Source: Herbaspirillum sp. WKF16 (lineage in GTDB: Bacteria > Pseudomonadota > Gammaproteobacteria > Burkholderiales > Burkholderiaceae_D). From it: a DNA stretch of 64,000 bases. This document shows positions 61,825-63,800 of the stretch, piece by piece. Below the pieces are notes generated by a model. The model had not been told where the DNA came from. It was given only the letters and a program-made list of their open reading frames with translations, and did no database searches. Where the stretch lies: assembly GCF_028993615.1 (NCBI RefSeq), contig NZ_CP118632.1, positions 3,038,001 to 3,102,000 on the forward strand, read 5' to 3'. Every line of letters starts with the position of its first letter. Positions within the stretch are counted from its first letter, which is position 1. Both the position numbers and the translations under genes were made by a program.

Positions 61825-63525
61825 ATGAACTGGTTCTACGACCTGCGCATCGCCCGCAAGCTGCTCATCACCTTCGCCGCGATCCAGCTGCTGACCGCCA
61901 TCCAGGGCGTGTTTTCCATCGTGCAACTGGCCAAGGTCAACCAGGCCTCGACCGATATCGCCACCGACTCCCTGCCCAGCGTGCGCTACCCGCTGGAGGC
62001 CAAGGTGGCGCTGGCGCGCATCCGCACGGTCCAGCTGCAGCACCTGCTGCCGGGCAACGAGGACAAGGTGGAGGACAACGAGAAACTGATCGCCACCCAG
62101 CTGCGCGTATTCAACGCCGCCATGGACAAGTACGCGCCGCTGACCGACACCCCGGCCGAGAAGACCAACTTCGCCGCCATCAAGGCCGACCTTGCCGCCT
62201 TCACCGCGCTGCATCAGAAGATCGCCGCCGGCGTGCGCGGGCAGAAGACCGACGAGGCGCGCGAGGTGTTGATCAAGGAAGTCACGCCGGTCTACCTGCG
62301 CCTGTTCGACACGCTCGACAAGGTGGTCGCGCTCAACGTCGAAGCCGCCGACGCCACCGACCGCGACGCCCAGGTGAACTACGAGACCGCGCGCACCATG
62401 ATCATCGCCATACTGGCCTGCTGCATCGCGCTGGGGCTGCTGCTGGCGACCTGGGTCGCTCGCATCGTCTCGCGGCCGCTGCAGGACGCCATGCATGTCG
62501 CCGAGCGCGTGGCCGAAGGCGACCTGACGGTGGACATCAAACCCGCCGGCCGCGATGAGACCGGACGCCTGATGCATTCGCTCAAGGCCATGAACGACAG
62601 CCTGCTGCGCATCGTCAGCCAGGTGCGCCAGGGCACCGACACCATCAGCACCGCCTCGCGCGAGATCGCCTCCGGCAACCTGGACCTGTCTTCCCGCACC
62701 GAGCAACAAGCCAGCTCGCTGGAAGAAACCGCCTCGGCCATGGAAGAGCTCACCTCCACCGTCAAGCAGAACGCCGACAACGCGCGCCAGGCCAACCAGC
62801 TGGCCAACTCGGCCTCCGACGTCGCGGTCCAGGGCGGCAGCGTGGTCGGACAGGTGGTCGACACCATGGGCGCCATCAACGCATCCTCGCGCAAGATCGT
62901 CGACATCATCAGCGTGATCGACGGCATCGCCTTCCAGACCAACATCCTGGCGCTCAATGCGGCGGTGGAAGCCGCGCGCGCCGGCGAGCAGGGCCGCGGC
63001 TTCGCGGTGGTCGCCTCCGAGGTGCGTTCGCTGGCGCAGCGCTCGGCCTCGGCCGCCAAGGAAATCAAGTCGCTCATCGACGACTCGGTCGCCAAGGTCG
63101 ACACCGGCAGCAAGCTGGTGGAGCAAGCCGGCCAGACCATGACCGAGGTGGTTTCCAGCGTGCGCCGCGTGACCGACATCGTGGGCGAGATCACCGCCGC
63201 CAGTTCCGAACAGAGCGACGGCATCGAGCAGGTCAATACGGCGATCGCGCAGATGGACGAAGTGACACAACAGAATGCGGCGCTGGTGGAAGAAGCGGCG
63301 GCCGCAGCCGGGTCGCTGCAAGACCAGGCCGAGAAATTGGCCGGTCTGGTCAGCGTCTTCAAGCTGGACCGCAGCCACGCGGCCGTCGCCGGCGCGGATG
63401 CAGCGCCGGCGCCGAGAGCGCCGGCCAGGCCGGCGGCCAAACCCGCTGCCGTCGCCAAGCCTGCGGCGCAGGCCATCCGGCACGCCCCCCGCCAAGGCGC
63501 CGGCGCTGCCGCCGAAAAAGAATGA
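61825..63525 (+). CDS. Methyl-accepting chemotaxis protein with apparent C-terminal frameshift
   Basis: The chemoreceptor has 566 residues as read. A cytoplasmic start is followed by TM1 at about 12-32, a four-helix-type periplasmic ligand domain, TM2 at about 190-212 ([20 protein letters not shown]), a HAMP domain ([20 protein letters not shown]) and a methyl-accepting signalling domain with the hairpin tip [20 protein letters not shown]. The reading frame ends in AAEKE. If the run of six C at 63485-63490 had five, it would continue to 63574 and end in DDGGSWEQF, the x-W-x-x-F CheR-docking pentapeptide of class I receptors. This may be a real frameshift, a phase-variable tract or a base error. 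The start at 61825 follows GAAGGGAAA. The ligand is unknown. Confidence 0.93.
63485..63490 (+). repeat. C6 tract at the chemoreceptor frameshift
   Basis: Six consecutive C within CACGCCCCCCGCC. Removing one C restores a frame ending in SWEQF at 63574; the frame as read stops at 63525. Confidence 0.8.
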
Positions 63526-63800
63526 ACCGAAATCCGCGCCGACCGACGACGGCGGTTCGTGGGAGCAATTCTGAGATTTTCCGCCTCTGCGCTTCCAGCC
63601 ATGTTCATGCGCCGGCTCAAGTGCGCGGCGCCGCTTGCCGTTAATCAATACAATAGCCCGATGCGGGCGCGGCGCGAAAGGTCGGCACTTGCAGCGCGCT
63701 TTGCGGTCAATGCCTGCAAGGACTACGGTGATATCGACAGCATGGGCAAAAACACAACTTCCGATCGCAGCAGCCGCGCCCCGCGGGCAAGGAGACCAAC

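Follow-up and report, generated by a model that had tools for sequence, protein, structure and literature searches.

A C6 frame break ahead of the CheR-docking pentapeptide in a Herbaspirillum chemoreceptor: a probable recent mutation or sequencing slip

The receptor gene and its C-terminal frames

The window discussed here is the whole stretch of DNA that was analysed, 64,000 nucleotides in length, and it includes a gene for a chemoreceptor whose features are collected in Table 1. The assignment as a chemoreceptor is based on the MCPsignal, HAMP and 4HB_MCP_1 domains, for all of which the Pfam matches are above the cut-offs, and there is also a weaker TarH match on the same product. The receptor frame starts with the ATG at 61825 and has its stop at 63525, and as read it ends in AAEKE with no C-terminal pentapeptide, although one is present in the orthologues. 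The run of six C residues in the linker is flanked by G at 63484 and G at 63491, and an ORF in the +1 frame, at 63275-63574, has the C-terminal end ...DDGGSWEQF. The earlier note had put the stop of the receptor frame at 63525 and had the +1 frame run on to SWEQF at 63574, and both proved to be exact to the base. It also spoke of class I receptors, which to our knowledge is not the usual name for those that bear a pentapeptide.

Searched against Pfam, the +1 ORF piece matched no family at E 0.001, which is to be expected if just its final 28 codons or so are former coding sequence. A scan for promoters and terminators was of no help.

Table 1. Features of the chemoreceptor gene, with positions in the window
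Feature	Position	Strand	Basis
Chemoreceptor (methyl-accepting chemotaxis protein), 566 aa as read, end ...AAEKE	61825..63525	+	ORF and Pfam
4HB_MCP_1 sensor domain, residues 6-186	61840..62382	+	Pfam, E 1.4e-24
HAMP domain, residues 210-260	62452..62604	+	Pfam, E 9.7e-14
MCP signalling domain (MCPsignal), residues 325-481, genome match L007	62797..63267	+	Pfam, E 1.7e-57
C6 tract in Ala/Pro-rich linker; one base off orthologue L113 in length (C3 there)	63485..63490	+	
Former tail in the +1 frame: end of linker, SWEQF, stop; conserved in orthologues	63491..63574	+	
Out-of-frame SWEQF codons, pentapeptide type xWxxF	63557..63571	+	Consensus in the available part of PMC7390727

The tail in relatives and the former coding of the +1 frame

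Orthologues were sought with the sensor domain as query in 34 genomes of the genus, this one included, and at a threshold of at least 65% identity there are matches in 13 genomes besides our own. In 11 of the 13 (L112-L122) the receptor frame ends in WEQF. Of the other two, L123 is cut by the end of a contig, and L124 has lost both tail and stop in a separate event, in which 63-77 nt were deleted by comparison with L120 and L121. The WEQF end is also present in six more distant relatives (L125-L130) at 46-50% identity. With regard to L124 (also L153, at G033:C1 near 3480700) we observe that after loss of the WEQF tail the frame continues into the downstream DNA.

The database proteins give the same picture. 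Among the matches listed 91 of 120 end in W[EQD]xF, with the window's own protein included in the count, and all 23 of the nearest (P0002-P0024, own protein excluded) end in WEQF. The nearest named relatives among these matches are Herbaspirillum proteins, the closest being that of H. robiniae. There is no second isolate of the species among the matches listed, and no other protein at above 90% identity.

These results bear on several claims of the earlier note. It had attributed to the receptor a C-terminal pentapeptide of the CheR-docking type, and the in-frame WEQF of the orthologues confirms this for the lineage. The alignment of relatives that it proposed as a check has their frame reaching WEQF, with none of the 23 nearest proteins ending in AAEKE, and the orthologue alignment upholds its claim that the tail is set out of frame by a one-base difference in the length of the C tract. 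That SWEQF arose by chance was considered and rejected, as the +1-frame tail is homologous residue by residue to the in-frame tails of the orthologues.

The +1 frame past the tract also has the marks of a former coding sequence. In the comparison with L113 there are 28 codons, of which 17 are identical, 8 differ synonymously and 3 non-synonymously (dN 0.10, dS 0.78), and if the same stretch is read in the receptor frame there are 0 synonymous and 11 non-synonymous changes. The numbers of synonymous and non-synonymous codons are 7 and 5 for the +1 frame against L114, and 4 and 9 against L112, and the excess of third-position differences is modest, with p = 0.03 against L113 and p = 0.19 against L112. 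As the codon differences from L113 are mostly synonymous, the +1 frame was coding until recently, and because it is undecayed the break must either be young or else not be in the cell.

The tract differs by one base in length from that of the relative G010. In 10 of the 11 aligned orthologues, the nearest (L113) included, the longest C run at the aligned place is 2 to 4, and the remaining one, L122, has C6 at that place but is in frame and has the WEQF end. In 274 kb of the genome there are 17 C or G runs of at least six, only 2 of which are inside frame-intact aligned coding sequence, and for runs of at least five the figure is 56 of 136. From these counts a run of C5 is nothing unusual in this genome, whereas C6 is seldom present in coding sequence, and the rarity of such runs in frame-intact coding makes this C6 as suspect for a miscalled length as for slippage. 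In the 64-kb window itself (1-64000) C or G runs of at least six are strongly depleted, with 4 found and about 33 expected under a first-order Markov model.

Other receptors, CheR and the quality of the assembly

There are 54 MCPsignal matches in the genome, 53 of them above the cut-off, and with the seven that have no canonical tip motif left out we have 47 canonical receptors. Eight of these end in frame in WxxF and 39 do not, and L008 makes a ninth if a looser aromatic pattern is used, as its end is EFEEF. The proportion of 8 in 47 is near to the 21% pentapeptide share for Burkholderiales in the available part of PMC7390727. Among the 47 there is no other case of an out-of-frame W[EQ]x[FYWL] plus stop near the stop of the receptor.

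In the case of L175 (G000:C1:4814750-4818220, minus strand) the end is GGGDRGEF, with R (codon CGG) at the place of the key W. Two relatives were matched in the 11 genomes searched, L231 and L232, with 69% and 58% identity in the sensor, and they end in GDWAEF and ADWEEF. Judged from these ends, a second pentapeptide of the genome has probably been spoiled, in this case by substitution.

L003 and L233-L243 have a recurrent acidic end without W (ELEEF, EMEEF, DLEEF) where others have xWxxF: EEF is the end of 9 of the 12 and LEQF that of one, and two are different. This end is possibly a variant docking end.

We also counted hidden tails in 180 distinct receptors, having left out those less than 300 nt from the end of the locus or with fewer than 90 residues after the tip. 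Of the 180, 94 have an end other than W..[FYWL], and in 2 a tail is hidden out of frame. One is the window receptor and the other is L052, on a draft contig of Herbaspirillum lusitanum P6-12, with an out-of-frame DDDWEQF, and here the break is in the conserved coiled coil and is probably an assembly error or the mark of a pseudogene.

CheR has five matches in the genome. For one of these, L202, the alignment to 1bc5 is free of gaps, and this includes the stretch in which 5y4r, which we take to be P. aeruginosa CheR1, is three residues short. A CheB match is about 1.2 kb from L202. The 1bc5 entry is that of CheR with NWETF (PMC7390727, available part), and at the level of sequence L202 is like the peptide-binding kind; CheR may bind the pentapeptide tails in this genome. 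At G000:C1:3109185-3115492, which is 7-14 kb past the end of the window, an MCP is close to CheB and to a CheR that by eye has a TPR-like tail, and the group, again by eye, looks like a chemosensory cluster of alternative function.

Single tails seem to be individually dispensable, as WxxF is present in only 8 of the 47 canonical receptors and L175 has R for W, and a real loss in the window receptor is thus plausible.

With regard to the assembly, the genome is a single contig of 4,986,464 bases with completeness 100 and contamination 0.05, and in none of its 54 MCPsignal matches is the matched region interrupted by a stop. For a more general estimate of frame breaks we compared the C-ends of genes in G000:C1:2838001-3112000 (274 kb) with those in the collinear stretch of G010, admitting gene pairs with at least 100 aa aligned and at least 82% identity. 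There are 142 such pairs, with about 170 kb of aligned coding, a few of the pairs being shadow ORFs. The C-ends are discordant in 7 of the 142, and sorting by eye gave a frame break in one, the window receptor, the other six being shadow ORFs or genes whose ends differ over a short stretch. The test may overlook a break that is within the first 100 codons. The frame break is thus isolated, which fits either a recent mutation or a lone homopolymer error.

For the estimate of frame breaks we rely on this test and not on three other screens. A greedy longest-ORF screen had 11 and 7, most of which were judged from identities to be shadow ORFs. By phase periodicity there were 5 sites with a matching shift, all between neighbouring genes or at the overlap of two genes, and this screen passed over 63490, probably because there is too little of the gene 3' of the tract. 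The tblastn screen yielded 14 candidates (10 and 4), of which most are 5' of likely starts and one is a repeat region with no gene, and it passed over the receptor too, probably owing to its gap limit.

Origin of the frame break and comparison with known systems

For the C6 frame break a mutation of recent date or a slip in sequencing is the most likely origin, and not an on-off switch. We prefer the first, and give a probability of about 0.5 to a real and recent one-base mutation in the C run that broke the tail of a receptor of known kind. The ancestral receptor ended in ...DDGxWEQF, a peptide on a tether to which the methyltransferase CheR would dock, and a recent one-base change in length of the C run in the flexible linker would, in the sequenced lineage, have put the last 28 codons or so out of frame. 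The product would retain the sensor, HAMP and signalling domains and have an unrelated end of 11 residues, with the docking peptide gone and with it the tether for CheR. As eight other canonical receptors end in WxxF, methylation would probably continue by way of CheR tethered to neighbouring receptors, which would then compensate for the lost tail. We infer that the change is present in the cell and not just in the assembly.

The alternative that has to be taken most seriously, although we hold it only tentatively, is the first option of the earlier note, namely that the deposited assembly has a homopolymer error and that the receptor in the cell is unbroken and ends in SWEQF like its relatives. 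The undecayed +1 frame is as an error would leave it, and the difference is of a single base within a C run, which is a typical type of sequencing error, whereas the single contig, the completeness and low contamination, and the lack of internal stops in the 54 MCPsignal matches speak against an error. Frame breaks are limited to just 1 of 142 gene pairs, yet that sole break coincides with the C6. Similarly the comparable hidden tail in the draft of another Herbaspirillum (L052), with its break in the conserved coiled coil, is probably an error, but L175 has lost its key W by substitution and not by an indel, and a related species has lost the orthologous tail by deletion (L124), which together indicate that real tail loss occurs.

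Phase variation, in which slippage in the C tract would toggle the receptor between forms that do and do not dock CheR, was the other proposal of the earlier note, and we consider it improbable. The C run is between the functional core and the tail, such that slippage would toggle the tail alone, and C6 is present at the aligned place in L122 also. However that is 1 of 11 aligned orthologues and in frame, and in the other 10 the run is 2 to 4 at most, so that the tract is mostly not kept in relatives. A published list of potentially phase-variable genes in another organism does include MCP genes that have long tracts, but in the available part of that paper (PMC3234257) the homopolymers counted were of at least 9, and six C is short. 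Further, the genome has mutS and mutL for mismatch repair, a hidden tail is present in just one among the 39 receptors that have no WxxF end, and a second state was not seen. The part of the proposal that stands is the frame break due to tract length; the switch between two forms is not supported, given the short and mostly unshared tract and the presence of mutS and mutL. Slighter still is the prospect that two heritable forms of the receptor, of which one tethers CheR and the other depends on neighbours, are set by C-tract length in a way that bet-hedges the speed of adaptation for one class of ligand. We found no report in an open-licence library of papers of a docking tail that is phase-variable or frameshifted.

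The least probable explanation is that ribosomes shift to the +1 frame at a low level on the in-frame CCC-C, which can act as a slippery site. In its codon context (GCC CCC CGC) the proline tRNA could slip by +1, and a small part of the receptor would then be made at full length, tail included. Against this, the receptor-frame stop is 11 codons past the site and too distant to stall the ribosome there, folding of the RNA 3' of the tract does not exceed that of its shuffles (z -0.30), and the C6 has no counterpart in 10 of 11 orthologues.

If the recent mutation that we prefer is real, then this is a natural case of a CheR tether that has just been lost while eight sister receptors keep theirs, joined by an independent loss in the orthologue of a relative and by a second receptor with R for the key W. 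With about 50 receptors in the set, it would then be possible to study under which conditions a receptor needs its tether. In the case of an error, what is gained is a corrected gene model.

Among known receptors the nearest in kind are those with a pentapeptide, such as Tar and Tsr of E. coli with NWETF, which likewise have HAMP, MCPsignal, a long flexible linker and a four-helix sensor, the last being common in such receptors (PMC7390727, in the part available). Their C-terminal xWxxF is matched by that of the orthologues, whereas in the window receptor it is out of frame and lacking as read. For a C run inside an MCP gene there is a parallel in Helicobacter bizzozeronii, in which a candidate phase-variable MCP gene has C9 in its 5' part (available part of PMC3234257); in contrast the window gene has C6, placed in the linker and towards the 3' end, and the tract is mostly absent from relatives and has no second state known. 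The product as read can also be compared with Trg of E. coli, which has no pentapeptide and is assisted by its neighbours, as it would likewise need CheR tethered elsewhere, and in vitro such tethered enzymes served five to seven neighbours (both from the accessible portion of PMC10561060). Unlike Trg, the window receptor lacks its pentapeptide only recently, and owing to a frame break.
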